Positions 17,017-38,098 of a DNA stretch of 64,000 nt are shown here, one piece after another. The notes under the pieces were generated by a model that searched no databases, was not told where the DNA came from, and saw only the letters and a list, made by a program, of their open reading frames with translations. Location of the stretch: the NCBI GenBank assembly GCA_031270825.1, contig JAISXH010000041.1, forward strand, positions 68,514 to 132,513, read 5' to 3'. The DNA comes from Bifidobacteriaceae bacterium (GTDB lineage: Bacteria > Actinomycetota > Actinomycetes > Actinomycetales > WQXJ01). Within the stretch, counting starts at the first letter, position 1. Each line of letters starts with the position of its first letter. The translations under genes were made by a program, and so were the position numbers.

Positions 17017-18699
17017 ATGAGCCTACAGTCAGTTGTCAGGTCGCCGAATGTACTTGAAGGGTCGATGGTCGACCCGGATCTGGCGGTCTGCCTGGCGGCG
17101 TTGGGCAGGTTCGCGCTCAAAGACCGTGCGGGTTTGCCGGCGGAGCGCTTGCTGGGTTGTCTGGACGCTTTGGCGCGGGCGGGCAACCAGGTCGAGTCGT
17201 TGACTGCGGCGGTCGCCGAAGAAGCCAGACGCCGCGGGTCGGCCACGAAAGCCACAGGCGTGGACGTGGAGTCGCATTTGCGGGCCGCCCAGAACCTGCC
17301 CGCCGGCCAAGCCCGCCGGCTGGTCGAGCAAGGCAAAGCGTTGAAACCGTTCGAGGTGATGGGCCGGGCCGCCCAACTGGGGGAGGTCGCGCCCGCCCAG
17401 GCGGCGGCGTGCGCCAAAGAGCTGGGGGGGTTCCCGGCCGACGTGTTGGGCGACCAGGCGTTGCGGGCCGCCGAGGCCCAGCTAGTCGACCAGGCGGGCC
17501 GTCTGGGCGCCAGGGCATTGGGCGCCAAAGCCCGCGAGCTGGTCGACCAAGCCCGCCTGAAAGCCGGTGTGGGGACAGGGCGGGCGGACCGATTGGACCG
17601 GGAACGCGAACAGGCCCACCGGGAGCGTTTCTTGTCGTTCCGCCCGGACGGCCAGGCGATGGCGATCTCGGGACGCTGCCCGATCGAGGTGGGCGCCAAG
17701 ATCAGCAAACGCCTGGCTGCGGCCGCGATGGCGGCCAGCCGCGAACGGACCGACCCGGATAACGGCGGCGGCCCGCTTAAAGACCAGGAGGGCCGGGTCT
17801 GGCAACCGGCCCAAACCGGCGGCGGCGAGCCGTTCGCCGCCTCGATGATGGACGCCCTAGAAGCGATGGCGGACGCCTACCCACCCGGCGGCGCGCCGCT
17901 GCAAGCCGGCCGGCCCGCCCGGATCGTGGTCACCATCACCAAAGACCAACTCGACGCCCTCACCCGCCCGGCCACACAGGCCGGGAACACCACGACAACC
18001 GGCGACACCACAAGAACCGGTGACGGCAGGACAAGCCGCGCCGACCGGAGGACAGGCCGCGCCGCCCGAGAATCCCACGCGGACACCCTCGAGCCCGACA
18101 CAGTGCAAGCGCCCGGCGGCGGGGAAGGCCTCGGAGGCGGGGATGCGTTCGGAGGCGGGGATGCGTTCGGAGGCGGGGTTCTGGGTCAGACCGGCGAGGA
18201 ACTGGCCCCGGAAGCGGTCAAACTGGCGGCCTGCGGCGCCGAATGGGTGGCCGTCCTGGTCGGCTCGTTCGGCCAGCCGCTGGACGTGGGCAGGACCACA
18301 CGGACGGTCCCCCCGGCGATCCGCACCGCTTTGGAGGAACGCGACCGGGGTTGTTGTTTCCCGAGCTGCGGGATCGGCCCGGACGGATGCGAAGCCCACC
18401 ACACCGACAAATGGGCGCTTGGCTGCCCCACCAGCCTCGACAAACTGGTCTTGGCCTGCCACCAACACCACCGCATCTTAGAACCCGCCATGAAACTGGC
18501 CGACGGAACACCCTGGAAACCCGGTATGGACGACCCGTCGAGATGGCGAGCCGAAATCGACCCCGTCCACAAACACCCCGTCGTGATCCCACCAGCCAGA
18601 GTCGACCCGGAACGAAAACCCAGACTCAACGACCGCATCAGACTCAAACTCGAAACCGCCCACCCCGCACCCGGAAAAGACGGGGTCCGGCGGCTCTGA
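17017..18699 (+). CDS. DUF222 / HNH endonuclease domain protein (13E12 repeat family)
   Basis: The 560-residue protein has a DUF222 helical domain (about 20-320) and a C-terminal HNH domain: CCFPSCGIGPDGCEAHHTDKW..CHQHHRILE, with the zinc-binding Cys pair and the catalytic HH. The family is multicopy in many actinobacteria (13E12 elements) and behaves like mobile or selfish DNA, although no mechanism is firmly established. Between the domains is an acquired low-complexity stretch including GGGDAFGGGDAFGGG (18-nt repeats near 18135-18180). It is flanked by repeats on both sides: the tandem duplication upstream and REP-like copies downstream. Confidence 0.85.
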   Translation: MSLQSVVRSPNVLEGSMVDPDLAVCLAALGRFALKDRAGLPAERLLGCLDALARAGNQVESLTAAVAEEARRRGSATKATGVDVESHLRAAQNLPAGQARRLVEQGKALKPFEVMGRAAQLGEVAPAQAAACAKELGGFPADVLGDQALRAAEAQLVDQAGRLGARALGAKARELVDQARLKAGVGTGRADRLDREREQAHRERFLSFRPDGQAMAISGRCPIEVGAKISKRLAAAAMAASRERTDPDNGGGPLKDQEGRVWQPAQTGGGEPFAASMMDALEAMADAYPPGGAPLQAGRPARIVVTITKDQLDALTRPATQAGNTTTTGDTTRTGDGRTSRADRRTGRAARESHADTLEPDTVQAPGGGEGLGGGDAFGGGDAFGGGVLGQTGEELAPEAVKLAACGAEWVAVLVGSFGQPLDVGRTTRTVPPAIRTALEERDRGCCFPSCGIGPDGCEAHHTDKWALGCPTSLDKLVLACHQHHRILEPAMKLADGTPWKPGMDDPSRWRAEIDPVHKHPVVIPPARVDPERKPRLNDRIRLKLETAHPAPGKDGVRRL

Positions 18700-18719: not shown

Positions 18720-18970
18720 GGCATCGGCGAATGTGATGTCACCACGCATGGGGACGGTGATCGTGTTGACTGGCCCCATCGCTCCCGCACCGAGGCTGTT
18801 GGCACGCATGGGGACGGTGATCGTGTTGACTGGCCCCAGCACCGCCCGCACGGGGGCCGGGGAGCCTTCGTCATAGGAGGCGGAATTGTTCCCTGCTCAG
18901 CACCGCCCGCACGGGGGCCGGGGGGCACGGGGGCACGGGGGCACGGCATCGGCGAATGTGATGTCGGAGC
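18720..18970. repeat. Decayed 60-nt tandem repeats containing two REP-like copies
   Basis: Sequence recurs at a 60-nt period. CACGCATGGGGACGGTGATC and its continuation to GGCCCC occur at 18743-18777 and 18803-18837. CACCGCCCGCACGGGGG occurs at about 18840 and 18900. GGCATCGGCGAATGTGATGT occurs at both outer edges (18720 and 18945). The first element matches the cluster at 34263-34573. No gene is seen in 18700-19020. Confidence 0.75.
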
Positions 18971-19020: not shown

Positions 19021-22000
19021 GTGTTCGGCAAAGCCAAAGGTGAACCGCGACCCGGCAAGCTGCCCAAGATTCTGCGGAATTGGGTCAACCGCGTTGCCAA
19101 GAAGGACCCGGCGCTGGCGGAGAAGCTGGCCGATCATTTGACCTCTGGCCGATCACCAGGGTGGCCGCCGCCACCGATGAGCCCTGCGGAGTCCGGGCTG
19201 CTGTTTGAAACCTGTTACGCACGGCGGGGAGCCCTAATGACCGAACTCGAGAATGATCCGGACGCGCTGACGCCCGGGCAGTGGGTGGCGGTGTTCCAGC
19301 TGCTGACGACGGTGCGCCCGGCCCAAGAGCTGGTGGCAACCGCCCCTGGCTGGGTGCCCTCCTGGCTCCTGGCCATCAACGCGCTGACCACCGGTTACGA
19401 GCTCGGGCGAACCTGGGAGCCAGCTTTCGCTGACAAGCTGTTGACCGCAGTGGAGATGCCGCCGGACCGTAAGCCGATCGTCATCGCCTACGCGTTGATG
19501 CGCGGCGTCACGGCCACCTCTTGGCGGGTCACTCCGTCCGCCTGGACCGATCCTGATGGGGCTGGGCCCAGCCTGTCTCGGTACTTGGCCGACAACGCCG
19601 CTGCCGCCTCGACCGCCCTGACCCAGTTGGACCCCGAGAACAGGACCACGGCCACTCGCCTGCTGCGCCACCACCCTGAGACATGCCGGCGCCTGGCCGT
19701 GCTGTTCATCGCCTGGGCGGTTGACGGCCCCAAGGCCTTGCGTCAGGCCGCAGCCTTGGTGATCAGCGATTTCCCTCCCGAACTGCGTCGTCAGGCGATC
19801 GCCAGCGCCTTGAAAGCCGACCGGGCGACCAGCCACGAGCAGATCATCGACTTGGCGGTGACCTTGGGCGATGACGGGCGGGACGTCCTGCGTCAAGCCC
19901 TCGGCGACGCTCCGCCCAAGCTGGCGGCCCAGCTGACCGACGCGCTGGAGCGCGGCGCCGCGCTCAGTCAGATAGGCAGCCCCGAACTTGCCATCCCGCC
20001 CGCGCCGCCGCTCGGCGCCACCGGCCTTGAGGAGCCAGATGTCCTCGCCAAACGGTTGCGCGCCGGAGTCGATGCTTTGGCCGAGCGCCGGCGGGCCAAG
20101 GTCGCTGCCGGGGCCAGTGAGTGGTACGTCAAATCGGTCAAGCACGAACTGCGCCGCTGGAGCCAGATCGACTTTGGCGAAGTGGCCGCCTGGCTGGCCG
20201 GGCGGCCGGGGGTGGCGCGGCCGGATGACGTCGAGATCATCCCGGTCGAGATCACGGCCAAACTATCCGACCTGCCGCTAGTCGTCAGGGTCAAAGCGTC
20301 CACCGTGGGCTGGTCGGGCGAAACCGGGCTGTACGATTCCCGCTTCCGAGACGTTGTCGGGACGGGCCCAGATCTGCGCAACGTGGCCCAGGCGGCCGAG
20401 CTGGCGGGCGTGGCCCGCCCAGTTACGCAGGTGGCTGATCTGGTGCTCGGCTGGGCAGGCCTGCGCGGCTGGGACCTGGATGCCGTGTGGCCGTTCTTCG
20501 CCGAGCATCCGGAGGTCCTTGAGCCAATTCTGGAATCGTCCCAGACCGGTCACCCCAGCGGCAAACTCAAGCCCGCGTTTCAGGTACTGGCCGCTTTCCC
20601 CGTCCTGCCTGAGGGACTTGTGGCCCGGCTGGCTCAGCTGGCCACTGGGGCGGGCAAGACCTACCGCCGCGAGGCCCAAGACTTGCTGGCCAAACAGCCG
20701 GGCTGTCTGGCTGTGGCCGAACGGGGGCTGGGGTCCGGCAACGGCCAAATCAGAGCCACCAGCGCGCAATGGATCGGGCGCCTGGGCCGCCCGGAGGCAG
20801 TGGGGCCCCTGGCCCAGGCGCTGGCAAGAGAGCGCTCCGAGACAGTGCAGGCGGCCCTCTTGGCCGCCTTGAAGGCACTCGGCCAGGACATCTCCGGATA
20901 CCTCAGTCCGGCGGCGCTGGCCCAGGCGGCCAACAAGGGCCTGGCCAAGAAGCTGCCGGCGGGCATGGAGTGGTTCCCCCTGGCGGCGTTGCCGGAATGC
21001 CGTTGGGCGAACGGCGATCCAGTCGACCCGAGCATCATCCGGTGGTGGGCGGTGCTGGCGGTCAAGCTCAAGGATCCGGCCGGCGCCGGTTTGATCCCGT
21101 TGTACCTGGAGCTGCTCGATCAAGCCAGCGCCGAGAGGCTGGGCCAATTCGCGCTCGACGCCTGGATTGCCCAGGACACACAGCATCCCAGCGACGCCGA
21201 ATGCCGCCTGGCGGCAGCGGCCGAGGTCGACTTCTACTACGACTACTACCAGCGCATGGCCAAGGATTGGCCCGACATCCCGGACTACGCGCTCACGGGA
21301 CAGTTGACGAAGGACGAGGTCTTCGAGCGGCTGCGCCGGGAGAAAGGCCAAACATACATTGGATCGGCGATCGGTCAAAAGGGCCTGCTGGCGCTGGCGG
21401 CCGGCGCTCCCGGCCACTACTTCTTGGCTGCCGCCCAGCGCTACGCCAAAGACCACTACGGGCGTCGAGCCCAGATTGAAGCGCTGGTCATTGCCGCATC
21501 GGCGAATCCGGATCCGGCCACCATCCAGTTTGTCCTGGCCGCCGCCCGGAGCTTCAAACAGGTCACCGTCCGCGCCAAGGCTGCCGAACTGGCGGACCTG
21601 ATCGCCGCCCGCCACGGCTGGACGCGAGACGAGTTGGCGGACCGCACGGTCCAGACCGCCGGCTTCGAAGACAGCGGCGAGCTGGTCCTTGACTTCGGCC
21701 CGCGTGCCTTCACGGGACGGATAGCCCGCTCCAGCAAGACCGGCGCCTTCACCATCCAGTTATTCAATCCCGATGGCAAACCGATCAAAGCCCTGCCGAA
21801 ACCCTCCCAGGCCGACAACCCCGACTTGGCCAAGGAGGCCCGGGCGCTCTTCACCACCGCCAAGAAGGAACTGACCCAGGTGGCGAAGCTCCAGACCAGC
21901 CGCCTGTTCGAGGCGATGTGCGTCGAACGCGACTGGGCCGCCCCGGTCTGGCAGGACTTCCTGGCCGGCCACCCCATCATGCGCCCGCTCATCGCCACCT

Positions 22001-22599
22001 TGGTCTGGAAGGCGCAGACCCCGGACGGCGGCCACAGTTTGTTCCGCCCGACCGAGGACGGCGAACTCTTGGACGCGCACGATGACGAGCACACGCTCCC
22101 AGCCGATGCCCAGATCCGTTTGGCCCACTTGGCAACCGTCAGCGCCGAAGAGGCCGAGCAGTGGCGCGCGCACCTGGCCGACTACAAGGTCAACCCGCTG
22201 TTCAGACAATTCGACGCGGCGACGCCGACCTTTGGACCGGAAGCTGTCGATATCAAGGACCATCTGGGCTGGCTCTCGGATTCTTTGAAGCTCCGCAGCC
22301 GGGCGGCTTCCCGCGGCTACTCGGTTGGCCAGGCCGAAGACGGCGGCTGGGTTTCTTCCTTCACCAAGGAGCTTCCGGCCAGCGGCCTCCAGATCGCAAT
22401 CAACTGCACCGGCATGCCCGTCGAGGCCGAGCTGATCGCGGTGGCGGTGACCACTTTGAAGTTCTGGGATCAGGCCGGACGCGCGCTGCCCCTCAGCCAG
22501 GTGCCGCCCATCCTGCTGGCCGAGTCCTACGCGGATTACGTCCACCTTGCCGAAGCCGGCGTGTTCGACCCGGAATGGGAGAAGAAGAGTGAGTACTGA
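19021..22599 (+). CDS. DUF4132 protein (YehI/MolR-like)
   Basis: The protein has 1192 residues from the GTG preceded by AGGAAGG; the frame is open further left but lies in repeat DNA. The C-terminal part (about residues 900-1090: KLQTSRLFEAMCVERDWAAPVWQDFLAGHPIMRPL..DDEHTLPADAQIRLAHL) is the DUF4132 domain. The preceding 700 residues look like helical HEAT-like repeats (LAKQPGCLAVAERGLGSG.., RPEAVGPLAQALARE). The length matches E. coli YehI. There is no signal peptide, so it acts in the cytoplasm. It overlaps the MoxR ATPase gene by 11 nt and is the first gene of the module. The function is unknown; a large scaffold or target-recognition role is an inference. Confidence 0.8.
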   Translation: MFGKAKGEPRPGKLPKILRNWVNRVAKKDPALAEKLADHLTSGRSPGWPPPPMSPAESGLLFETCYARRGALMTELENDPDALTPGQWVAVFQLLTTVRPAQELVATAPGWVPSWLLAINALTTGYELGRTWEPAFADKLLTAVEMPPDRKPIVIAYALMRGVTATSWRVTPSAWTDPDGAGPSLSRYLADNAAAASTALTQLDPENRTTATRLLRHHPETCRRLAVLFIAWAVDGPKALRQAAALVISDFPPELRRQAIASALKADRATSHEQIIDLAVTLGDDGRDVLRQALGDAPPKLAAQLTDALERGAALSQIGSPELAIPPAPPLGATGLEEPDVLAKRLRAGVDALAERRRAKVAAGASEWYVKSVKHELRRWSQIDFGEVAAWLAGRPGVARPDDVEIIPVEITAKLSDLPLVVRVKASTVGWSGETGLYDSRFRDVVGTGPDLRNVAQAAELAGVARPVTQVADLVLGWAGLRGWDLDAVWPFFAEHPEVLEPILESSQTGHPSGKLKPAFQVLAAFPVLPEGLVARLAQLATGAGKTYRREAQDLLAKQPGCLAVAERGLGSGNGQIRATSAQWIGRLGRPEAVGPLAQALARERSETVQAALLAALKALGQDISGYLSPAALAQAANKGLAKKLPAGMEWFPLAALPECRWANGDPVDPSIIRWWAVLAVKLKDPAGAGLIPLYLELLDQASAERLGQFALDAWIAQDTQHPSDAECRLAAAAEVDFYYDYYQRMAKDWPDIPDYALTGQLTKDEVFERLRREKGQTYIGSAIGQKGLLALAAGAPGHYFLAAAQRYAKDHYGRRAQIEALVIAASANPDPATIQFVLAAARSFKQVTVRAKAAELADLIAARHGWTRDELADRTVQTAGFEDSGELVLDFGPRAFTGRIARSSKTGAFTIQLFNPDGKPIKALPKPSQADNPDLAKEARALFTTAKKELTQVAKLQTSRLFEAMCVERDWAAPVWQDFLAGHPIMRPLIATLVWKAQTPDGGHSLFRPTEDGELLDAHDDEHTLPADAQIRLAHLATVSAEEAEQWRAHLADYKVNPLFRQFDAATPTFGPEAVDIKDHLGWLSDSLKLRSRAASRGYSVGQAEDGGWVSSFTKELPASGLQIAINCTGMPVEAELIAVAVTTLKFWDQAGRALPLSQVPPILLAESYADYVHLAEAGVFDPEWEKKSEY

Positions 22600-23683
22600 G
22601 GCGGTTCGCCAACCGGCGGAGTTGAAATTCGCCGACGAGTTGGCCCGGCTGGCCCAAGACGACCAGGAGCAAGGCGGCGCCAAACCGCCGGGCTGGAAAC
22701 TGACGGCGCGAGCGGTCCGGTCCTTCGTCATCGGCGACGAACCGCTGGGCGTGGAGCGCAAGTTCTACGGCGACGATCCGCTGGTCGACCGCGCCATCGT
22801 CACCCTGATGGGCCGCCAGGGATTGATGCTGGTGGGAGAGCCGGGAACGGCCAAGTCTATGCTGTCCGAACTGCTGGCGGCGGCGATCAGCGGTAACTCC
22901 AACCTGACCATTCAGGGCACTGCGGCCACCACCGAGGATCACGTCCGCTACTCGTGGAACTACGCCCTGCTGCTGGCCGAGGGGCCCACCGAACGGTCCA
23001 TCGTGCCCTCGCCCATCTACCAGGCGATGGTGTCCGGCCGGATCGCCCGTTTCGAGGAGATCACCCGCGCCGCGCCCGAGATCCAGGACACCATGGTCTC
23101 GCTGCTCTCAGAGAAGCACCTGATGGTGCCAGAATTCGGGGCGGATGCCAGGATCGCGGCCCGGTCTGGCTTCAACGTCATAGCGACCGCGAACTTGCGG
23201 GATCGCGGCGTCAACGAGATGTCGGCCGCCCTCAAGCGGCGCTTCAACTTCGAGACCGTCCACCCGCTGGCGGACCCGCAGTTCGAGGTCGAGCTGGTGG
23301 CCCGCCAATTGGAGGCCGAGCTCGGCCCCGATCTCCGCTCGGTCAAGTTCGACCGGGAAGTGCTGGACCTGCTCGTCACCGTGTTCCGGGACCTGCGCAC
23401 CGGCACAACCAAGGAGGGCACGGTCATCAAACGCCCGGAAGCGGTGATGTCCACGGCTGAGGCGGTCGGGGTCGCCGTCTCGGCCGCGCTGGAGGCCCGC
23501 TACCTGGGCGACGCGGTGGTCACCCCGGGCCGGATCGCCGACCGAATGCTCGGTGTGGCGCTGAAAGACAACCAGGAGGACGCCGCCCGCCTGCGCTTCT
23601 ACGCCGACACCGTGATCCGCGAGCGCGCTCGTCACGACCGCCGCTGGAAGGCCTTCCTGACCGCCACGCGGACCTGGCGCTAA
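22589..23683 (+). CDS. MoxR-type AAA+ ATPase (YehL-like)
   Basis: The protein has 364 residues from the GTG at 22589, inside the end of the DUF4132 gene and preceded by GGGAGAAGAA. Walker A is GEPGTAKS (83-90). The Walker B region reads RIARFEEI (151-158), with Glu replacing the usual Asp. Sensor 1 is ATAN (199-202) and an arginine-finger candidate lies in ALKRRFNFE (214-222). MoxR ATPases remodel partner proteins, typically together with a VWA-domain protein, and one is encoded two genes downstream. The length is close to E. coli YehL. Confidence 0.9.
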   Translation: MSTEAVRQPAELKFADELARLAQDDQEQGGAKPPGWKLTARAVRSFVIGDEPLGVERKFYGDDPLVDRAIVTLMGRQGLMLVGEPGTAKSMLSELLAAAISGNSNLTIQGTAATTEDHVRYSWNYALLLAEGPTERSIVPSPIYQAMVSGRIARFEEITRAAPEIQDTMVSLLSEKHLMVPEFGADARIAARSGFNVIATANLRDRGVNEMSAALKRRFNFETVHPLADPQFEVELVARQLEAELGPDLRSVKFDREVLDLLVTVFRDLRTGTTKEGTVIKRPEAVMSTAEAVGVAVSAALEARYLGDAVVTPGRIADRMLGVALKDNQEDAARLRFYADTVIRERARHDRRWKAFLTATRTWR

Positions 23684-23705
23684 CCCACATCAAGGGTTCC
23701 AAGTC

Positions 23706-26666
23706 TTGACCAATGCACCGAGTCTGGCTGGGCGCGCCGGGGCGGGCCGCCCTTTCCCTGGGCGATTGGCCCGGGCGTTCGACCTGGTGGATGGCCTGTC
23801 TGAGGTCGGCGTCTGGTTCGCCCCGGTCCGCCACCACAGCCCAGCCTGCGCCCGCGCGGTCGGCGCCGCGATCGACGAGCTGGCGCCGGCGGCGGTTCTG
23901 ATCGAAGGTCCCGCCGAATACGATCACCTGATTCCGGCGCTCCTGGACCAGGGCACGGTTCCGCCGGTCGCCATTCTCAGTCAGCACCCCTCGGCCGAAG
24001 GGACCACCTCCAGCTTGTATCCGCTGGCCGATTTCAGCCCGGAGTGGATGGCGTTGCGCCGGGGGGCGGCGGCGGGCTCGCGCCTGGCCTTCATAGACCG
24101 CGACTGGGACAGGTCCGAATTCGCGTCCGATGCCGCCGTGCGCCTTTCCGGTGAACGTCACTACCACGTCTCGGCCGCGTTGACCGCCTTGGCGGCTCGC
24201 GAGCATTGCCGCGACGCCGATGAGTTATGGGAGCATCTCTTCGAGTTGCGGCCGCCCGGCGGCCCATGGGCCGATCTCTTCCGCGACGCTCTGGCCTGGG
24301 GCGCGCTGCCGCGCCTGGAGCAGCCGGTGGAGGCCCTGATCGCCGAGGGCTCGATCGACCGCGAGGCCGCCATGGCTCGCCACATCGCGGCTTGGCGCCA
24401 GCGCACCGAGGGGGCTCTGGTGGTGGTGACCGGGGCTTTCCACACCATCGCCCTGGTTGAAGTGCTCGCCACCGAGTTAGGCGTGGGCTGGGACCGACCG
24501 GTCCACCTCGACGCGCTGCCTGCCACGCCCCGCGCGGGCGCACCAGCGCGCCGGCCCGGGCCTCCCGAACCGGGCGCGATCCCCGAGGCGCCCACACCGG
24601 GCGCAACGTCCAAGATTGTTTGTCTCGGGCCCGGCGCGGTGCCCGGGCCGCCCGAGCCCAGCCCAACTTCCGACACGGGGCCGCGCGGGCCGGGCGCAAC
24701 ACATCAGGCGGATCCTTCCGGGCCAGGCGCGATGCCCGAGGCGCCTGCGACGGGCGCATCGCTCATGATTGGTCCTTCCGGGCCAGGCGCGATGCCCGAG
24801 GCCGGGTCGCCCAGGCCCGGCCCGGCGCTCGAAGCGGCGGCGGCGGAGGTCGCGGCTATCCAGGAGCGGCTCAGGCAGCGCTCCCCGGCGCCCGCAGAGC
24901 GTCCCTCCTGGTTGATCCGCTACGACCTGACGGCCCTCAATTCGCTCAGCGGCTACGGCGCCGGCATCCGGTCGCCCGGCTACCACCAGCGACTTTGGGA
25001 TAGCCAGGCCCGGGGCGAACAAGACCCGGCGGCGGCCGGGCGCCAGAACGCCATCGACTGCCTGATCGCCGTGGCGCACCAGACCCAAGATTCGAACCAC
25101 CAGATTTCGATCGCAGAAGTCAGCGCGGCCGCAGTGCACTGCGCGCGCCTGGCCGAACTACGCGGGCATCCCTATCCCAGCCGGCTCGACTTACTCGACG
25201 CCGCCTTGGCCTGTTTCGCCAAAGGCGACTTCGACGCGGTCTTGCGAGACGGCATCGGACAGGTGTTCGGCGGCAACAAACTAGGCCAACTGCCGCCCGG
25301 CACAGCGGCGCCGCCGATCGTGGCCGAGGCCCGCGAGCGGGCCCGCGGGCTCAAACTGAACATCGTCGACTCCACGTCCCGGACAGTCGATCTGGACTTG
25401 CGGCGGTCGGCGTCGGCGCGGCGACGCAGCCGCTTCTTCTGGTTGATGTCCTATTTGGACACCGGGTTCGCCACGCGGCTGGTTGGGCCCGACTTCTTGA
25501 CCGGCCGGGCTTTGGGTCGCCTGCGTGAAAGGTGGCGCTACGCCTGGACCCCGCTGGTCGAGGCGTCTCTGATCGGCCTGCTTGAGGAGGGCAGCTCCCT
25601 GGAAGAGGCGGGGCGGCGGCGCCTGGCCCGGAGCTTGGAGGAAAACGAAGCGGCTGCCGGCGGGGGCAGCGCGGCAGCCGTCGCGCAGGCTGTGGCCCAG
25701 GCGGCTTTGATCGGTCTGCATGACGAGGTGTGGCGTTACGGGGCGGTCCTCGAGAGCGTCATAGACGCCGATTCCGACGTGACGTCGGTCCTGAGCGCGG
25801 CCTGGCGGCTGCTTGGTCTGATGCGTGCGCGCGAAGTCCTGGACCTGACCGGGATCGATCGCCTGGCCGACCTGATCACGCGGCTGGCGCCCCAGCTCGT
25901 CTACCTGTTGGGCGGTTTGCACGCGGTAGATGCGAGCGGCGAGGAAGCTGTCGTCCAGGCCCTGATCGGCATGGTCGAACTGACGGGACGCCTAGGCGAT
26001 CCGGGCGTGACCGCCTTGGTCGACCAGGCCCTGGCCGGACTGCGCTCGGACCCGGACGCCTCGGCCGGCCCGCTCGGCGCCGCCGTGGCCTTAGGTGTTG
26101 TCCAAGGGTCGGTCCCGCAGGACCTGTTGGCGACACGTTTCGCCGTTGCCTTCGCTCCCGGGGCCGCTTTGGATTTCGGGCCGCGGTTCTTGAACGGGGT
26201 CCTCCAAGCGGCGCCCGATCTGCTGTTCCACACGGCGGAACTGTTCGATGCCGTCGACGCGGCGGTGCGCCGCCTGGAGCCCGACGATTTCCTAGCGGTT
26301 CTGCCCCAGCTACGCCGGGGCTTCGGACGTTTGCGTCCCTTCGAGACCGCGCGCCTGGCCGAGCGCGTGGCGCGCGACTCGGGACTGCCGGCCGCTTCCC
26401 TGACTCCGGTCTGGACCCGGCTGACCAGCGCCGACCTTGCCTTTGGGCAGGAGGTGGAGGTCGAGCTGCGGGCCTCGCTGTCCCGCGATTGCCTGGCCGG
26501 TTGGCTCGACCAGGCTGCTAGTGGGAACGCAGGTCTGGACCGGGGGCGCGCTCCTGGCAATGAGGGCGGCGTTGATGAATATCCGGGCTTGGGCGAGGAT
26601 GCCGAGCCTCGCGGAAATTGCAAGCCAGGGGAAGACAGCGCGCGCGGCCGAGGGGAAACGCCATGA
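23706..26666 (+). CDS. DUF5682 family protein (YehM-like)
   Basis: The protein has 986 residues from a TTG start 22 nt after the ATPase gene (AAGGG 9 nt upstream). The N-terminal part carries VRHHSPACA, LIEGPAEYDHL and later VVVTGAFHT, motifs that recall the TraB/ChaN/erythromycin-esterase-like fold with conserved His and Glu; a hydrolase activity is therefore conceivable but unproven. Residues about 275-375 are a Pro/Gly repeat insertion (units like SGPGAMPEA, two identical copies near 24720 and 24780). The helical second half (about 400-940) matches no fold I recognise. ATGA overlap with the VWA gene. Confidence 0.75.
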   Translation: MTNAPSLAGRAGAGRPFPGRLARAFDLVDGLSEVGVWFAPVRHHSPACARAVGAAIDELAPAAVLIEGPAEYDHLIPALLDQGTVPPVAILSQHPSAEGTTSSLYPLADFSPEWMALRRGAAAGSRLAFIDRDWDRSEFASDAAVRLSGERHYHVSAALTALAAREHCRDADELWEHLFELRPPGGPWADLFRDALAWGALPRLEQPVEALIAEGSIDREAAMARHIAAWRQRTEGALVVVTGAFHTIALVEVLATELGVGWDRPVHLDALPATPRAGAPARRPGPPEPGAIPEAPTPGATSKIVCLGPGAVPGPPEPSPTSDTGPRGPGATHQADPSGPGAMPEAPATGASLMIGPSGPGAMPEAGSPRPGPALEAAAAEVAAIQERLRQRSPAPAERPSWLIRYDLTALNSLSGYGAGIRSPGYHQRLWDSQARGEQDPAAAGRQNAIDCLIAVAHQTQDSNHQISIAEVSAAAVHCARLAELRGHPYPSRLDLLDAALACFAKGDFDAVLRDGIGQVFGGNKLGQLPPGTAAPPIVAEARERARGLKLNIVDSTSRTVDLDLRRSASARRRSRFFWLMSYLDTGFATRLVGPDFLTGRALGRLRERWRYAWTPLVEASLIGLLEEGSSLEEAGRRRLARSLEENEAAAGGGSAAAVAQAVAQAALIGLHDEVWRYGAVLESVIDADSDVTSVLSAAWRLLGLMRAREVLDLTGIDRLADLITRLAPQLVYLLGGLHAVDASGEEAVVQALIGMVELTGRLGDPGVTALVDQALAGLRSDPDASAGPLGAAVALGVVQGSVPQDLLATRFAVAFAPGAALDFGPRFLNGVLQAAPDLLFHTAELFDAVDAAVRRLEPDDFLAVLPQLRRGFGRLRPFETARLAERVARDSGLPAASLTPVWTRLTSADLAFGQEVEVELRASLSRDCLAGWLDQAASGNAGLDRGRAPGNEGGVDEYPGLGEDAEPRGNCKPGEDSARGRGETP

Positions 26667-27784
26667 TGCCGGCGACCGAACAGGCCCGGCGCTGGCGGCT
26701 GATCCTGGGTCGATATGCCGACACCGTTCTGCCGGCCGGCCAGGTCCTGGGCCGGCGCGACTGCGACATCGACCTGGCGCTGGGATTCTTGGCCGACCGA
26801 GCCTACGCCGAACGAGGACACCGCCATGGCGCCGGCCTGGGCGGTTCGGCGCTGACGGCGGTGACCTGGTTGGAGCAGGCTCGGCGCCTGTTCCCCAAGT
26901 CGACCTTCGAACGCCTGCAAACCACCGCCATTCTGGACTACGGCTTGAACGAATTGCTGGCCGATCCAGCCGTCGCCGATTCGATCGATCCCAGCCCCGA
27001 GTTGGCGGCAGCGCTGCTGGCCCTGCGGGGAAAGTTGGACCCAGGGTTGGAGACTGGACTAAGAATCATCATCGCGAAAGTGGTCCAGCAGATCGTCGAA
27101 CGGGTCAGGCCCAAGTTCACGGCCGCGCTGTCCGGCCGGCGCGACCGCCACAGGCGTTCTTTTCAGCCCCGCGCCCAGAACCTCGACTGGCGAGCCACCA
27201 TCCGCGCGAACCTGCGCAACTGGGACCCCGAGCGCCGCCAGCTCGTAATCGCCCAAGCCCGCTTCATCCAGCGCGCCAAACGCCACCTCCCCTGGGAGGT
27301 CATCTTGTGTGTGGACCAGAGTGCCTCCATGGCCGAATGCGTGCTCAATTCGGCGGTTTGCGCGTCGATCCTGGCGGCGCTGCCATCGGTGGGCGTGAGC
27401 CTGGTCTTGTTCGACACCTCGGTGGCGGACCTGACCGACCAGGCCGCCGACCCGCTGGAGGTCTTGATGACGGCGCAGCTGGGCGGTGGCACCAACATCG
27501 GTGGGGCCCTGGCCTATTGCGAGACCTTGGTGCGACGACCGGCGACCACCGCATTGGTGCTGGTCAGCGATTTCGAAGAGGGCGGCTCGGTGGCGGCGCT
27601 GGTGGCTAGCGCCAAGCGCTTACGCGAGGCCGGCGTGACCTTGCTCGGGATGGCGCCATGCGACCAGGCCGGCAGGCCCAGCTTCGATCGACATGTGGGC
27701 GGCCGGCTGGCCGAGGCCGGCTTCGAAATCGCCGCTTTCACTCCTGACGCGATGGCTGATTGGCTGGCGGAGGTCCTCAGTTGA
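26663..27784 (+). CDS. VWA domain protein (CoxE-like, YehP-like)
   Basis: The protein has 373 residues from the ATG that overlaps the previous stop (ATGA). The helical N-terminal half is followed by a von Willebrand A domain with a complete metal-binding MIDAS site: DQSAS (218-222), the Thr in GGGTNIG, and the Asp in SDFEEGG. In MoxR-VWA pairs the VWA protein is the partner or adaptor of the ATPase. It is translationally coupled to genes on both sides. Confidence 0.88.
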   Translation: MMPATEQARRWRLILGRYADTVLPAGQVLGRRDCDIDLALGFLADRAYAERGHRHGAGLGGSALTAVTWLEQARRLFPKSTFERLQTTAILDYGLNELLADPAVADSIDPSPELAAALLALRGKLDPGLETGLRIIIAKVVQQIVERVRPKFTAALSGRRDRHRRSFQPRAQNLDWRATIRANLRNWDPERRQLVIAQARFIQRAKRHLPWEVILCVDQSASMAECVLNSAVCASILAALPSVGVSLVLFDTSVADLTDQAADPLEVLMTAQLGGGTNIGGALAYCETLVRRPATTALVLVSDFEEGGSVAALVASAKRLREAGVTLLGMAPCDQAGRPSFDRHVGGRLAEAGFEIAAFTPDAMADWLAEVLS

Positions 27785-29823
27785 GCCACTGGACCGATGC
27801 TTACGCTGAGCACGATCAATCCCGCCTGGCCGAATGGGCCGGCCCTGGCAAGGTCCGCCGAGCCCTCAAATTGGCCGCCGGAGACGCCGCGCCTGCGACT
27901 TTTTCGGAGAGCGCGGATGGTTCAGGGGCGTTGATCCAGGTGGCCGGCTTCGCCGTGCGTCTGGACGGCGGCGGCCCCTCCCGGGCCCGTTGCCCCTGCC
28001 CCGCCGGCGGCGTCTGTGTCCACGTCGTGGCGGCCTGCCTGGCGGCCCACCAACGCGCCCAAACGGCGCCGGGCGCCCCTGATCGCGGCGCTCCCGGCGG
28101 CATTCCCCCGGCGGGCGCCGGACCTTCCGGCCCCTCCCGGTCCCCGACTAGTGCTCACAGCCCGGATGTATCCACGGGGACCACGCCGAGCGCCCAGCCG
28201 GCCGCCAATGCCCCGGCGGACACCAGCGCTCCCGCGCAGGCAGGACCCGGCGCCACCGCGCCCGGCGGCCAGCCCAGCAGCGGTCCGCCCGGCGGCCAGC
28301 CCAGCAGCGGTCCGGACACCGGCCGGCCCAGCAGCGGTCCGGACACCGGCGGCGCGGCGGCCTCCGGCGCTGTCGACCGGGCCAGCGCCGTGAGTTCCGC
28401 GCCCGGCCAAGGCGCTGCCGACACCGCGGACCAGAGTAGTAACCGGGCCGCGGAATGGGCCGCCTTGCCGCCGCGCGCGCACGCCGCGATCGAGGACCTC
28501 CGGGCGGAGATCGAGGACCTGGTCGCCGTCGGCCTGGGCCGCCTGAGCACTGGCGCCGCCGAAAGCTTGGCCGACCTGGCGACCAGCGCTCGCGCCGCCG
28601 GTCTGCCTTTGCTGGCCCGCCACGTCGCCAGAGCCGCCGGTCAGGCGCGCAAACTGGCTCAACGCCGAGAGGATGCCGCGCAAGCGCAGATGACATCGGC
28701 GCTAGCGCGAATCTGGGCTCTCGGCGAGGCCCTGACCATGGCGACGGGCTCCGACCTGGCACGGCTGCGGGGCGCGCAGCGGCGTCAGTTCCAACAACTG
28801 TCGGGCGCCCTGAACCTCCATCCGCTGGGAGCCTGGCAATGGCATTCGGATTCAGGCGCCCGGGGTATCACCCTGGTCGCTTGGGACACCGAGCGCCGCC
28901 AGCCCTGGACGACAACCCTCGCCCGGCCCTCCGGCGCCGACCTGCGCTTCCTTGCCGCCGGCCCCGAGACCATGTTCTGGGGAGTGACGCTCAGCCGGCT
29001 CCTGACCGGCCCCTTCGAGCTGACCGCGCCCCGTGCGGACGCCGACGGTTCGCTCTCCCCAACTGGAGGACAGGCCAAGATGGTGGGGCACGGCATCGGA
29101 CAAGAAGTGTTGCAAGAGGCGACGGCCGCCCTCCAACTGGCCCGCCCCTCCCCCGACCTGGCAGCCGGCGGTTGGCCGGTGGCGATGCTGGCGACCAGCG
29201 GCAGGGGGAAGGTCAGCGTCGACGAACCCGAGCAGCGGCTGGTCTGGCGTCTGGCGACAGTCGCGGGCGATCAGGCGCGCCTCGACCAGGACATCACGCC
29301 CTTGACGGGCCGCCGAGTCGAGGCGGTCCTGGCCCTGGAAGAATCTGGAGCGGCGGTGGCCTATGTGCTAGCCGCGCGCGGCGACTCACGCGGCCGCGAG
29401 ACCTGGTCGCCGGTCACGGTAGCCGTCCGCGAGGGCCGGGCGCTGAAACTGACTGCGCTCGACTGGCCGCCCCAGCGGCGGCGCCAATCGCTGGCCGGGC
29501 GGGCCGTCGACCTGATGCTGCGGCGCTGGGCGGCTGACCCTCCCCGAGCGCCGGCCTCCCGCCCGGCCGCGGCCGTCCTGGCCGATGACGTGCGCGACCT
29601 CGTGGTCCAATTCGCGGCAGCGGGCCGGCTCCGGACCTCTCCCGGCCAACTCGCGCGCGTGGGCGAACTGGCCCGGCGGGCCGACGATCTCGCCTTGGCC
29701 ACCCTGGCTCAACTGCTCCGCCGGCTCGGCGACCAGGCCGATGCGCCGGTGCTATTGCAGATCCACCACATCGCCGACCGCATAGCCGTTCTGGCTGGAG
29801 GCGCATCCCCGGCAATCCAATGA
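27781..29823 (+). CDS. SWIM zinc-finger protein (YehQ-like)
   Basis: The protein has 680 residues from a TTG start overlapping the VWA stop (TTGA), with GGAGG 7 nt upstream. The SWIM motif CxCx5CxH is present as CPCPAGGVCVH (Cys71, Cys73, Cys79, His81); such fingers bind DNA or protein. Residues about 97-225 are a long Pro/Gly/Ser/Ala repeat insertion (GQPSSGP and DTGRPSSGP units). The rest is helical with no enzyme motif seen. It is the last gene of the module; a GTCCGGCCGGAC palindrome (29870-29881) lies between it and the convergent ApbE gene. Confidence 0.82.
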   Translation: MSHWTDAYAEHDQSRLAEWAGPGKVRRALKLAAGDAAPATFSESADGSGALIQVAGFAVRLDGGGPSRARCPCPAGGVCVHVVAACLAAHQRAQTAPGAPDRGAPGGIPPAGAGPSGPSRSPTSAHSPDVSTGTTPSAQPAANAPADTSAPAQAGPGATAPGGQPSSGPPGGQPSSGPDTGRPSSGPDTGGAAASGAVDRASAVSSAPGQGAADTADQSSNRAAEWAALPPRAHAAIEDLRAEIEDLVAVGLGRLSTGAAESLADLATSARAAGLPLLARHVARAAGQARKLAQRREDAAQAQMTSALARIWALGEALTMATGSDLARLRGAQRRQFQQLSGALNLHPLGAWQWHSDSGARGITLVAWDTERRQPWTTTLARPSGADLRFLAAGPETMFWGVTLSRLLTGPFELTAPRADADGSLSPTGGQAKMVGHGIGQEVLQEATAALQLARPSPDLAAGGWPVAMLATSGRGKVSVDEPEQRLVWRLATVAGDQARLDQDITPLTGRRVEAVLALEESGAAVAYVLAARGDSRGRETWSPVTVAVREGRALKLTALDWPPQRRRQSLAGRAVDLMLRRWAADPPRAPASRPAAAVLADDVRDLVVQFAAAGRLRTSPGQLARVGELARRADDLALATLAQLLRRLGDQADAPVLLQIHHIADRIAVLAGGASPAIQ

Positions 29824-29940: not shown

Positions 29941-30882
29941 TCATTGATGGAGCCGGGGCCGAAAACTGGCCCGGGCGCCGGCGCTGACCAGGACCGCCTC
30001 CGCCGTGACCGTGACCGAATCCACCGGCCAGCGGGCCGCGCAAGACGTTCCCCCGACCAACAGCGCCGTTGAGTACGCTTCCGCCACCATGCCGCTGTCC
30101 GCCAGAACGGTGGCCTGCAGGATGTCCGAGTCGCACGGTCGGCCCGTCCTCGGGTCGATTATGTGCGCCGCCTGTTCGTCCAGACTCGAAGTCGCCAAAG
30201 CGCCATCCGCCAGGTCGATCACGCCGAGGACCTGATCGCGTCCCGCCCCCGGCGCGCGGATCCCCACGCGCCACGGACCACCGCCAGGCCGCTCGCCCAT
30301 AACCGCCAGCGAGGAGACCCCGACCGCCACCAACGCCGAGGCCGCGCTGAATTGGCGGCACAGTGCCAGGCAGGCGTCCGCCGCATAGCCTTTGCCGATG
30401 CCGCCCAGGTCGATCCCGCGCCGGCGGTCCCGACTATCGCCGCCGGCGGCCAGGCGAGCCTCGGCAACCATCACCGCAGTCCCCGCCGACCCCTCGGCCG
30501 CGCGGCGCCTGACCCCGATGCCGCGGCCCGGCAGGGCCGGGTCGAACAGGCCCTGGGTCTGTGCGCGCAACCGCGCTGCCTCGGCCAACACGGCCGCCGT
30601 GTGCGGTCCGACTGCCAACCATTCACCAGGGCGCCGGTTCAGCCGCGAGATGTCTGATTCGGGCCGGAAGCGCGACAACTCGTCCTCGATTTCGACAACC
30701 AGTTGCCGCACCGCGGCCACCAGCGCCGCATGCCCGGCCGGCTCATCCGCGATCGCCCCGGTGAAGCTCAGGGTCACCATCGTTCCCATGGCCGGGAACT
30801 GAGCCCGCGTCAAAGCACCCGCACCCGCACCCGCCCCCGCAGGCACGCCAACAGTGGACATTCCCGGAGCCAGCACGGCCAT
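29941..30882 (-). CDS. apbE: FAD:protein FMN transferase (ApbE)
   Basis: The 313-residue protein is of the ApbE family: AMGTMVTLSF at the N-terminal strand, ELSRFRPESDISRLNR, GIDLGGIGKGYAADAC (flavin and metal site) and the C-terminal THIIDPRTGRP-like HIIDPRTGRP with SGMVAEAYSTAL. It transfers FMN from FAD to a Thr in partner proteins. The partner is probably the FMN-binding lipoprotein encoded immediately upstream. Starts at TTG 30912 or ATG 30861 are also possible. No signal peptide or lipobox is obvious near the start, which is unusual for an extracytoplasmic enzyme, although the hydrophobic APGMSTVGVPAGAGAGAGAL stretch is weakly signal-like. Confidence 0.88.
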   Translation of the reverse strand: MAVLAPGMSTVGVPAGAGAGAGALTRAQFPAMGTMVTLSFTGAIADEPAGHAALVAAVRQLVVEIEDELSRFRPESDISRLNRRPGEWLAVGPHTAAVLAEAARLRAQTQGLFDPALPGRGIGVRRRAAEGSAGTAVMVAEARLAAGGDSRDRRRGIDLGGIGKGYAADACLALCRQFSAASALVAVGVSSLAVMGERPGGGPWRVGIRAPGAGRDQVLGVIDLADGALATSSLDEQAAHIIDPRTGRPCDSDILQATVLADSGMVAEAYSTALLVGGTSCAARWPVDSVTVTAEAVLVSAGARASFRPRLHQ

Positions 30883-31012
30883 CAGGCGGCGATCCCCGCT
30901 CCCGGGCCGCAACCCGGCCTAAGACGCAGCACACCGCTTTGTGCCCTCATGGCGATGACCTCCGCGCCGAGGTGGCCACCCGGCCACTCAGCCAACGCGG
31001 CGGACCTCGCCA

Positions 31013-31714
31013 TCATGAGGCGACCTCCCCGCCGAGCCCGGCTCCGCGCTCGCCGGCGCCACTGTTCTTGGTCGTGCTGGACACGCCCTCCTGGGCTTGG
31101 ACTAACGCCTCGGTCGCCGCCTCCAGGAACTGGCCATAGGCGATCGTGGCGCCGGAGACGGCATCGACCTCGGCCGGTTCTCCGGTCTCGATCAGCTCAC
31201 GCGCGTACACGTCGAAGGCCGCCACCGCTTTCTGGGCGGCGCGGTAGGCGGACCGGTTGGCGATTTCCCCGGACGAGTCCTTGCCGTAGTCTTCGGCTTT
31301 GATCGACCCGTTGGCTTGGACTGTCACGTACTCAGATGCGGCTATCCTGCCGTCCTCGATCATGACGGTTGATCGCCCGTAGGCCCCATCCTCATCTGGT
31401 TTGCTCTCGCCCACCCAGACGCCGTCCGCCAGCGGCAAGGAAGCGTCGAACGCGGGCGCGGAGGGCCCGCAAGCGGCCAGTCCGAAGACAGCCAAACCCG
31501 CCCCGCCAGCCAACCCGGCCAATCCGGACAGGCCGGTCAAGGCGCCCCTCCCGCTGGCGGGCCTAGAGCCGGCAGGCCCAACGCCGCCACGCCCGATTCC
31601 CCCAGGCGCAAAGCCCCCAAACCCAAAGCCCCCAGACCTAAAGCCGCCAAACCCAAAGCCCCCAGACCTCAAGCCGCCAGGCCCAGGACCGGCGGCCCTA
31701 CTCTCCTCGCTCAT
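31013..31714 (-). CDS. FMN-binding domain lipoprotein
   Basis: The protein has 233 residues from the ATG that overlaps the ABC ATPase gene by 17 nt. The C-terminal FMN_bind domain contains DAVSGATIAYGQF; the Thr of SGAT is the expected site of covalent FMN attachment by ApbE. A hydrophobic stretch ending in the lipobox LAAC (Cys near residue 82) anchors it outside the membrane. The segment before it is a Gly-Phe repeat (GGFGFGGF, GGFRSGGF) that makes the signal region unusually long. Role by context: extracytoplasmic electron transfer, plausibly for iron reduction. Confidence 0.85.
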   Translation of the reverse strand: MSEESRAAGPGPGGLRSGGFGFGGFRSGGFGFGGFAPGGIGRGGVGPAGSRPASGRGALTGLSGLAGLAGGAGLAVFGLAACGPSAPAFDASLPLADGVWVGESKPDEDGAYGRSTVMIEDGRIAASEYVTVQANGSIKAEDYGKDSSGEIANRSAYRAAQKAVAAFDVYARELIETGEPAEVDAVSGATIAYGQFLEAATEALVQAQEGVSSTTKNSGAGERGAGLGGEVAS

Positions 31715-32372
31715 GGAACACCTCCCGGACCACCCGGCCGTGGTCGAGCGCGATCTCACGCTGCCCCTGGGCCGCCACCTCAGGATCGTGCGTGACAACC
31801 ACCAGGGTGGTGCCTTCGGCGTGCAGCGAGCGGAAGATCTCGAGGACGGTTTCCTCGTTGGCGGCGTCCAGGTTGCCGGTCGGCTCGTCGGCCAAGATCA
31901 ACGCCGGGTAGTTGATCAGCGCGCGGGCGATGCAAACCCGCTGTTGCTCGCCTCCCGACAACTGCGACGGCAAGTGCGCGGCGCGCTCCTTCAGGCCCAC
32001 CCGGTCGAGAGCCGCCAACGCCTCGGCCTCATCCGGCATCGAGTGGTAGTACTGAGCCACCATCACGTTCTCCACTGCGGTCAGATGCCCAATGAGATGG
32101 AATTTCTGGAAGATCAACCCGACCGTGTTGCGCCGGATCTGGGCCAGTTCCTTCGCTTCCAGTTCGCTCAGCTCAACCCCGTCCAGCAGCACCGAGCCGG
32201 CGCTGGCTCGGTCCATCGCGCCCACGATGTTCATCAAAGTGGTCTTGCCTGACCCTGATGGCCCCACAATCGAGAGCCACTGACCCCGTGGCACGGTCAG
32301 CGACACGTCGTCTAGCGCCCGCAGCTCCCCATACACCTTGGAGACCGATTCCAGTTCCAACAACTCACTCAT
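31698..32372 (-). CDS. ABC transporter ATPase (MacB/LolD type) of the iron operon
   Basis: The protein has 224 residues from the ATG at 32372. Walker A is GPSGSGKTT, signature LSGGEQQRVCIARAL and Walker B ALILADEPTGNLD. It is of the class that energises FtsX/MacB-type permeases rather than importers. Two such permeases are encoded upstream. The start codon overlaps the stop of a small upstream frame (ATGA). It is the equivalent of the ATPase in Campylobacter-type P19/FTR1 loci. Confidence 0.9.
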   Translation of the reverse strand: MSELLELESVSKVYGELRALDDVSLTVPRGQWLSIVGPSGSGKTTLMNIVGAMDRASAGSVLLDGVELSELEAKELAQIRRNTVGLIFQKFHLIGHLTAVENVMVAQYYHSMPDEAEALAALDRVGLKERAAHLPSQLSGGEQQRVCIARALINYPALILADEPTGNLDAANEETVLEIFRSLHAEGTTLVVVTHDPEVAAQGQREIALDHGRVVREVFHERGE

Positions 32373-32476
32373 AAGCCGCCCTCGCTGTTGGCCGCCGCCG
32401 CTTCGGTATGTCCCCAAAGCACGGCCGCGCCGATTGCCCCACCGGCCGTGATGAGACCCGTCCCCACCACAGCCAC
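32369..32476 (-). CDS. Possible small membrane protein, or C-terminal part of a larger repeat ORF
   Basis: A minus-strand frame open from 32746 to the stop at 32369-32371 ends in a clear hydrophobic helix (GVAVVGTGLITAGGAIGAAVLWG) and a short polar tail, with an ATGA overlap onto the ATPase gene. The first conventional start in frame is the GTG at 32476 (35 residues). Upstream the same frame encodes about 85 residues of Asp/Gly/Asn/Gln repeats (GDQNGGQDG type) without any ATG, GTG or TTG. It could begin at a rare start or arise by +1 frameshifting past the permease stop at 32730. The position and membrane helix make it credible, but it is unproven. The 32477-32729 stretch holds only these repeats. 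Confidence 0.4.
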   Translation of the reverse strand: MAVVGTGLITAGGAIGAAVLWGHTEAAAANSEGGL

Positions 32477-32729
32477 CCCGTTTCGGGCGCCATCTTGGCC
32501 CCCATTCTGGTCGCCATCGCGCCAGACCCCGTTCTTGCCCCCACGCTGGTCCTCATTTTGGTCGCCGCGCCGGCCCCCAATGGGGTCGCTGTCTTGGCCC
32601 CCATTTGGGTCCCCGCTCTGGTCACCTTCCAGCTCCTCATCTTGGTCGCCATTCCGGTCGCCGCGCCCGCCCCCACTCGGGCCGCAGTGCTGGTCCCCAT
32701 CTTGTTCATCGCCTTGGTCGCCATGGTGG

Positions 32730-34235
32730 TCATTCTCCCCGCAGCACTACCGCTGGATCGACTTCGGCCGCGCGGCGGACCGGCACCAGCGCCGCCGCCC
32801 AGGCCACCAGCGTCGACAGGCCGACTGCCGCCACCGCCAGCCACCACGTCATGGCCACTGGCCGGTGGAACACGTTCAGGCTGATCACCTGCGCCAACAG
32901 GTATCCCAGAGCCGTCCCGACGATTCCCCCGACCGCTCCCAAAGCCAAGCTTTCGCTCAAGAACTCGCGCTCCACCTCGCGGTTGGAGGCCCCCAAGGCC
33001 TTCCGCAGCGCGATCTCGGCTTGCCGTTCCGCCACCACGGCCATCATGGTGGTCGACACGCCGATCATGGTCAAGGCCAACACGATCACAGCGATCAGCG
33101 CCAGCAGCGACCGCAGCATCGAGAGCACATAGGTGTCGGATTCGGTCAGCCGTTTGACCGGCGCCGCCGCCACCTGGCCTACTTCTGCGGCAATTTGGTC
33201 CGCGAGGGCCTCGATCCTGGCCGCGTCCGCCGCCACCGAGTATTCGACCACGTCGTACTGGCCCGTCCCACCGGCCAGCGCTTCGAGGTCGCCCAGGGCC
33301 ATCAAGATCAACTCGTCTTCCGAGCCGCCCGTCGACAGCACGCCCGCCACGGTGAACGTCCCCGCTCGTTCTTCTTCCAGGACCGCCTGCCCCGTGCCGC
33401 CGCCCCCGGCCTCATCCCCAGCGTCGGGCCCAGCACCATCCCCAGCGTCGGGCCCCTCGCCTTCGCCACCCGACTCGCCCGATGCCGTGGCGCCGCCCCC
33501 GGCCCCAATCCCGGCGCCCGACCCCTCGCCTGCGCCCGCTGGGTCGCTCTGGTCCCCGACGTCGCCAACCACGGCATCGCCCACCGCCGCCGCGCTTTGG
33601 CCACCCGACTCGCCCGATGCCGTGGCGCCGCCCCCAGCCCCAACCCCGGCGCCCGACCCCTCGCCTGCGCCCGCTGGGTCGCTCTGGTCCCCGACGTCGC
33701 CAACCACGGCATCGCCCACCGCCGCCGCGCCTTCGCCGGCCTGCCCTCCATCGGCATCAGCCGACTCGAGGGCCGCGACCAACTCGATTTCGTCGCCCGC
33801 CTCCAGGCCGGCCCATTCGGCTATGTCCTGGCCGATCAGAACCTCTCCCGGGGTGGCCGGCCATTCGCCCTCCACGTACCAGTACGGGCTCACCTGGCGT
33901 ACCGCGTCCAAGTCGGTGCCCCCGGTCAAGAAGGGCTGTTCGTTGAGGCGCAGCGTCTCATAGCGGTACGGCGCCGAGCCGATCACATCGGCCGATTCGA
34001 GCACCCCCGCGATCGGCGCCAGCGCCGCCGCCGGCACCCTGTCCGCTCCATCAGCGGGCATGACCAGCAGATTCGCCCCATAGGCCCGCATCTCGCGGGT
34101 CATTTGGCGCGGAATATCGGTCGCGATGGAGGCCAAAGCGAACAACGTGGTGGCCCCGATGCCGACGGCCAGCACCGCGATCAGCACCCGCGACCGCCGC
34201 CGCGTCACCGACCTCAGCGACATCCGCCAAAACAT
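32730..34235 (-). CDS. FtsX/MacB-type ABC permease, second copy of iron operon
   Basis: The protein has 501 residues from ATG 34235 (MFWRMSLRSVTRRRSRVLIAVLAVGIGATTLFAL). It has an N-terminal membrane helix, a large extracytoplasmic MacB_PCD-like domain and a three-helix FtsX core (LLALIAVIVLALTMIGVSTTMMAV..EIALRKALGASNREV). An insertion in the periplasmic domain (about residues 160-270) contains a 135-nt tandem duplication (45 residues, GDAVVGDVGDQSDPAGAG) at about 33466-33735. The start matches that of the partner permease (MFWRM). The frame is open far upstream through the REP-like repeats, which I exclude. No ribosome site is visible; a 20-nt palindrome abuts the start. Confidence 0.85.
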   Translation of the reverse strand: MFWRMSLRSVTRRRSRVLIAVLAVGIGATTLFALASIATDIPRQMTREMRAYGANLLVMPADGADRVPAAALAPIAGVLESADVIGSAPYRYETLRLNEQPFLTGGTDLDAVRQVSPYWYVEGEWPATPGEVLIGQDIAEWAGLEAGDEIELVAALESADADGGQAGEGAAAVGDAVVGDVGDQSDPAGAGEGSGAGVGAGGGATASGESGGQSAAAVGDAVVGDVGDQSDPAGAGEGSGAGIGAGGGATASGESGGEGEGPDAGDGAGPDAGDEAGGGGTGQAVLEEERAGTFTVAGVLSTGGSEDELILMALGDLEALAGGTGQYDVVEYSVAADAARIEALADQIAAEVGQVAAAPVKRLTESDTYVLSMLRSLLALIAVIVLALTMIGVSTTMMAVVAERQAEIALRKALGASNREVEREFLSESLALGAVGGIVGTALGYLLAQVISLNVFHRPVAMTWWLAVAAVGLSTLVAWAAALVPVRRAAEVDPAVVLRGE

Positions 34236-34236
34236 G

Positions 34237-34256
34237 TTGCGGCGCGCGCGCCGCAA
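34237..34256. promoter_or_regulatory. Perfect 20-nt palindrome abutting the permease start codon
   Basis: TTGCGGCG CGCG CGCCGCAA is perfectly self-complementary and ends one base before the ATG at 34235 on the minus strand. In RNA it would form an 8-bp stem with a 4-nt loop exactly where a ribosome site would lie. It may be a terminator or attenuator limiting distal genes of the operon, or part of the neighbouring repeat cluster. Confidence 0.45.
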
Positions 34257-34262
34257 TTCAGC

Positions 34263-34573: not shown

Positions 34574-34588
34574 TTTTGGGCATTGGGA

Positions 34589-35899: not shown

Positions 35900-35911
35900 G
35901 TCGGCCGGCCC

Positions 35912-37402: not shown

Positions 37403-37448
37403 CTACGCTCGCCCCCGATCACGCTTGGCAGGACTCATTCAGCCATTC

Positions 37449-38081: not shown

Positions 38082-38098
38082 CAGTTGTTCTCCAATTG

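Follow-up and report, generated by a model that had tools for sequence, protein, structure and literature searches.

The stretch considered here, referred to throughout as the window, comprises 64,000 nucleotides of contig JAISXH010000041.1 (positions 68,514 to 132,513 of the forward strand; assembly GCA_031270825.1) from a Bifidobacteriaceae bacterium. Between its positions 19021 and 29823 lie five adjacent genes, all on the + strand, whose products belong to the families DUF4132, MoxR, DUF5682, VWA_CoxE and SWIM, in the order of the E. coli yehI/L/M/P/Q type. The first gene (19021..22599) encodes a DUF4132 protein (Pfam DUF4132, 7.6e-32) of 1192 amino acids when counted from GTG 19021, which has AGGAAGG directly upstream; an alternative start at an in-frame ATG at 18961 is possible. 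It overlaps by 11 nucleotides the gene for a MoxR AAA+ ATPase of the YehL type (22589..23683; Pfam AAA_5, 6.1e-36), and after a gap of 22 nucleotides comes the DUF5682 gene (23706..26666; 986 amino acids; Pfam DUF5682, 1.3e-95). This shares an ATGA with the gene for a CoxE-like VWA protein (26663..27784; 373 amino acids; Pfam VWA_CoxE, 4.3e-49), which in turn shares a TTGA with the last gene (27781..29823). From TTG 27781 the latter specifies a SWIM zinc-finger protein of 680 amino acids, matched by a hidden Markov model (HMM) of our own and, at 0.023, by that of Pfam. The positions, overlaps and gap had been given by an earlier note made from the letters of the sequence, and the coordinates of the open reading frames (ORFs) bear all of them out.

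That note's proposal of a single conserved unit made up of the five products is supported by a neighbourhood survey, by the fixed gene order and by correlated distances among the proteins. When 297 genomes of the phylum were searched with a DUF5682 model, the family was present in 21, and it was also present in 6 of 29 relatives; MoxR and VWA stood beside it in every one of the 35 phylum neighbourhoods fetched. A pattern scan of genome contigs based on the MoxR alignment yielded 80 named loci in at least nine phyla, a sample that is biased to window-like MoxR. DUF5682 follows MoxR in all 80, and VWA is present in 66 of the 67 with enough contig. On these counts the families are not scattered. 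The SWIM protein is found by HMM in 53 of 55 unfused loci, and a CxC...CxH ORF lies behind the fused loci with enough sequence. Pairwise distances among the five proteins correlate at 0.86–0.97, against at most 0.19 with shuffled labels, values to which shared ancestry contributes.

Some lineages have joined members of the set. One ORF encodes both DUF5682 and VWA in 12 of 67 loci, and likewise in L056 and L064–L068. In L055, the SWIM protein is a single ORF with DUF5691, a family that there takes the place of DUF4132 as the long protein, here termed the scaffold. By the usual fusion argument the VWA protein would therefore contact DUF5682 and the SWIM protein the scaffold, which suggests two physical sub-assemblies, DUF5682-VWA and SWIM-scaffold. 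Annotated plasmid records show both SWIM-DUF5691-AAA-DUF5682-VWA and DUF4132-AAA-DUF5682-VWA-SWIM forms. Among annotated records, an Iodobacter plasmid has DUF4132-DUF4132-AAA-DUF5682-VWA-SWIM, Agrobacterium has AAA-DUF5682-DUF4132-VWA-SWIM, and Deinococcus and Rhizobium plasmids have DUF5691 instead of DUF4132. The SWIM-DUF5691-MoxR-DUF5682-VWA operon of actinobacteria (a three-gene-core form) and a Deinococcus plasmid has the same MoxR, DUF5682, VWA and SWIM components as the window, but differs in carrying DUF5691 in the DUF4132 place and SWIM upstream, and its scaffold has no detectable profile similarity to that of the window. (Two or three different DUF5682 modules, of the DUF4132, DUF5691, giant or VWA-first forms, occur within one genome in G129, G162, G023, G194, G108, G183, G205, G236 and G305.)

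The scaffold slot is swappable, being filled by DUF4132, DUF5691 or a giant protein around a constant core of motor, enzyme and zinc finger. Long flanks were available for 62 loci: 44 of them show from one to at least three DUF4132 ORF matches, 12 have the giant protein (nameless, about 1,600–1,960 amino acids) and in 6 no scaffold was detected. DUF5691 fills the slot in one actinobacterial genus with large genomes, where a divergent SWIM protein accompanies it. A common origin of the three scaffolds was rejected, as hhalign gave no similarity among them. The AlphaFold2 model of the window DUF4132 protein (predicted local distance difference test, pLDDT, 83) has a HEAT/ARM-like solenoid over its N-terminal ~870 residues, followed by the C-terminal alpha+beta DUF4132 domain, and its best Foldseek matches are HEAT proteins of the karyopherin-beta2/importin-beta type, SF3b, CAND1 and condensin. 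The window SWIM protein scores under the Pfam cut-off, yet its four zinc ligands, C71, C73, C79 and H81 (27991..28023, + strand), follow the CxC...CxH pattern that is invariant in 40 of 40 relatives. Scaffold and SWIM protein are the fastest-evolving parts: between the window and L075 identity is 69% for MoxR, 53% for VWA, 45% for DUF5682, 37% for DUF4132 and 30% for SWIM.

The motor parts are intact. Walker A (GEPGTAKS), the sensor-1 N and the arginine finger RR are invariant in 82 of 82 MoxR sequences. So is a Walker B of EE rather than DE (window residues 156–157), which sets YehL-type MoxR proteins apart from those of the NorQ/NorD, CoxD/CoxE and RavA/ViaA pairs. The metal-ion-dependent adhesion site (MIDAS; DxSxS, T, D) of the VWA protein is intact in the window and its residues are kept in 75–76 of 76 sequences. 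Those three pairs likewise combine an AAA+ MoxR with a VWA protein having a MIDAS, and the window VWA protein is of the CoxE family; unlike the window module, they lack a partner of the TraB type, a SWIM protein and a HEAT scaffold. Cryo-electron microscopy of NorQ/NorD has shown the MoxR ring twisting its VWA partner and so opening a metalloenzyme (PMC13036017), which by analogy makes this pair the nearest mechanistic model for the module.

The third constant component, DUF5682, has an N-terminal TraB/ChaN/EreA-like domain, a low-complexity insert and a C-terminal helical part (AlphaFold2 model, pLDDT 80). The putative hydrolase domain occupies residues 34–260 (23805..24485, + strand). R42, H43, P46, E67, P69, E113, D131, R219, E220, M223, G243 and H246 are invariant in 51 of 51 sequences, and H44 is kept in 50 of them. 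Comparison of the N-domain profile with ChaN by hhalign gave E 1.2e-4 at a probability of 55% over 32 columns; with TraB the value was 0.005 and with EreA 0.009. The alignments are short, and all three fall on one place, RExxM...GxxH. As yardsticks, the accepted kin TraB and ChaN gave 0.0019 and unrelated controls 0.38 and, for VWA, 0.002. Foldseek of the model against viral structures found a TraB-family protein with probability 0.99 but E 0.063. With full-length DUF5682, only helical-repeat proteins and no TraB-type fold stood among the best 50 PDB matches listed, and a PDB sequence search with the profile gave no informative match. What DUF5682 has in common with the TraB/PrgY/GumN, ChaN and erythromycin-esterase superfamily is the RExxM...GxxH motif, early H and E motifs and the beta-alpha order; it differs in being much larger, with a helical C-terminus of ~500 residues, and in being fused or coupled to a VWA protein. 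Invariant residues, profile matches and the viral fold match together support the earlier note's suggestion of a TraB/ChaN-like N-domain, and make that kinship probable, not proven; DUF5682 is probably, to judge from these features, a metal-dependent hydrolase. Most relatives lack its Pro/Gly/Ala-rich insert (24504–24820, residues about 267–371, pLDDT <50); a linker in the SWIM protein resembles it.

In another explanation MoxR and VWA would be a metal-cofactor insertion pair like CoxD/CoxE or NorQ/NorD, with DUF5682 as sole client. MoxR/VWA_CoxE pairs do act in metal-enzyme maturation (PMC13036017), the conserved H, E and D residues of DUF5682 are candidate metal ligands, and the DUF5682-VWA fusions fit. 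However, a role confined to insertion leaves the scaffold and the SWIM protein unexplained. A variant, that the function concerns molybdenum as the old name MolR implies, meets the difficulty that MoaA does not exceed its cut-off in 7 of 25 genomes with the module, among them the window's own and that of Acetatifactor muris; molybdopterin synthesis is therefore not needed, and a molybdate role as the general function was rejected. In either version this explanation is unlikely.

In E. coli K-12 the order yehI, yehK, yehL, yehM, yehP, yehQ is that of the window, and each window gene has its homologue there: MoxR (49% identity to YehL, E=2e-110), VWA (43%, 3e-99), DUF4132 (4e-30), DUF5682 (2e-20) and SWIM (2e-4). 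The earlier note was thus right that the five families recur, still uncharacterised, in E. coli, though the window module is not closest to that of E. coli. In the MoxR tree the window sequence is in a fully supported clade with Promicromonosporaceae, Proteus, Providencia, Acinetobacter, Gilliamella and Sphingomonas, while E. coli YehL is on another branch; therefore either the block has been passed between phyla or old paralogues have been retained. The E. coli cluster also has extra WGR/DUF4132 genes upstream, yehF and yehH (yehH is a pseudogene in K-12), and is core there, whereas the module is accessory in the window's genus. Of 5,426 E. coli genomes, 5,181 (about 95% of complete genomes) contain at least 80% of the yehL–yehQ block, and the genome-reduced strain DGF-298 can do without it (PMC10652928).

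A further explanation is a machine of the DNA-damage response, in which WGR and SWIM domains would bind damaged nucleic acid and MoxR, VWA and DUF5682 would clear stalled protein. Directly upstream of yehF, the WGR gene that heads the cluster, is a LexA-type site, CTGGATAAAATTACAG (L001 4450–4465), and molR is on a list of known LexA-regulated genes (PMC11039860). Yet yehF precedes yehL by about 8 kb, and the SOS link concerns yehF only. Similarly, a Deinococcus DUF4132 operon is up-regulated upon DdrO depletion (PMC8533742), but that evidence covers DUF4132 and not MoxR. DUF4132 proteins of several modules do have an N-terminal WGR domain; that of the window is without one. There is no SOS-type box before the window module and LexA-type boxes are not enriched upstream of other modules, so that SOS control as a general rule was rejected. 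A machine dedicated to DNA damage is improbable. One WGR-domain protein is encoded in a flank: in L116 (1982–3514) it adjoins a DUF4132 gene and MoxR and matches PADLOC WGR_XIII at 4.3e-116, the sole member with a detected WGR domain among 78 flanking proteins scanned. It is possible that retron-type XIII WGR/HEAT proteins are linked to DUF4132 proteins.

Within the window's own genus DUF5682 is carried by 5 of 10 genomes, and the window-type modules of two members (L062, L063) have no flanking gene in common with that of the window, in support of the earlier note's suggestion of a variable locus. A core syntenic position, which that note had named as counting against its reading, does hold in E. 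coli and also in an actinobacterial genus with large genomes (where the DUF5691 form is at most 5 kb from a succinyl-CoA-synthetase-like gene in 8 of 8 genomes), but neither across bacteria nor in the window's genus. The window's module is flanked upstream by a Cthe_2159-type gene and downstream by an ApbE/FMN-binding/ABC/FTR1 iron cluster. These flanks occur in module-free relatives separately from each other and on different contigs, and no clean empty site could be demonstrated; nor does base composition give any sign of recent foreign DNA at the module. The copy in the window is one of the horizontally scattered members of the module family, and its locus is accessory and non-syntenic in the genus.

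The REP-like repeats and the 13E12-type gene that the earlier note placed upstream of the module are both real. The latter, a DUF222 protein gene at 17017–18699, is directly upstream of the repeats and the module. The 36-nucleotide repeat has two identical copies, at 18743–18778 and 18803–18838, with about 35 similar sites elsewhere in the genome. Repeats of this kind (CACGCATGGGGACGGTGATCGTGTTGACTGGCCCCA and relatives) stand on both sides of the module, at 18743–18838 and 34312–34584, and are not specific to it. The iron-uptake-like cluster (29941–39808) consists of ApbE, FMN-binding, ABC ATPase, FtsX permease, FtrD-like and FTR1 genes, whose order is kept in module-free relatives.

Patchiness in the genus, together with the fast evolution of scaffold and SWIM protein, would fit an anti-phage or conflict system. 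In such a system, of the MoxR-vWA ternary type, the scaffold would sense the invader and DUF5682 would be the effector. Several predicted conflict systems are headed by MoxR-vWA pairs (PMC7159879), and the mobilizable 77 kb plasmid pl1 of Iodobacter fluviatilis (L265) has a full module with two DUF4132 genes, between insertion sequence elements and beside type I restriction-modification genes. The ternary systems (Kaur 2020/2021) share with the module a MoxR-vWA core, a dedicated third protein and swappable parts. However, the third component in the window, DUF5682, is not a published one: no VMAP, iSTAND, iSTAND2, TERNS3, FtsH or beta-propeller component was found there by Pfam. Nor did Pfam or PADLOC find effector or effector-associated domains fused to the window proteins. 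PADLOC gave only chance-level matches for these five, and no recurrent defence family among the 78 flanking proteins, a comparison made without a background rate. The module is core in E. coli. Relatives are in one phage record and 31 plasmid records (several of the latter really chromosomes), and none could be confirmed in viral contigs; phage carriage was rejected. The defence role that the earlier note thought plausible is thus unsupported and quite unlikely. An accessory stress or quality-control function is more likely than classical phage defence.

The reading preferred here is that the five genes specify a single ATP-driven machine, in which a MoxR-VWA motor would act on or through a TraB-like hydrolase while scaffold and SWIM protein choose the target; its chances of being right or wrong are about evenly balanced. 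As in NorQ/NorD or CoxD/CoxE, the MoxR hexamer would be the motor and the CoxE-like VWA protein the adaptor. The latter would hold DUF5682, the putative metal-dependent hydrolase of TraB/ChaN/EreA fold, and ATP hydrolysis may remodel, metal-load or gate it. The long HEAT-repeat scaffold and the SWIM protein would recognise the target and deliver it to the enzyme. The sequence itself shows the components, their fixed order, co-inheritance and fusions, and intact residues of the ATPase, the MIDAS, the zinc ligands and the putative catalytic site; we infer that the products assemble physically in this organism and that DUF5682 is an active hydrolase, as well as the way in which the machine acts and what it targets. 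Several points weigh against this reading. The relation of DUF5682 to TraB/ChaN is distant (the 55% probability covers 32 columns) and one negative control, VWA, likewise scored 0.002. The part played by zinc finger and scaffold could be in assembly instead of target choice, and genes that move as a block need not make one complex.

A broader proposal, tentative and rather doubtful as yet, is that the module represents a widespread nameless class, in which a MoxR-VWA motor and a TraB-fold hydrolase are combined with interchangeable HEAT-solenoid receptors (DUF4132, DUF5691 or the giant protein) and a SWIM protein. The literature searched contained no description of the module as a system and assigned it no function. 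If the proposal is true, the class would be an ATP-gated hydrolase with targets set by its receptors, and so would differ from the AAA+ proteases and MoxR systems known so far. The module is carried by about 95% of complete E. coli genomes and spread over many phyla. The value lies in a description at the level of the family. The rule of a constant motor, enzyme and zinc-finger core with an exchangeable scaffold, along with the named catalytic candidates, makes the function of the E. coli y-gene block testable.

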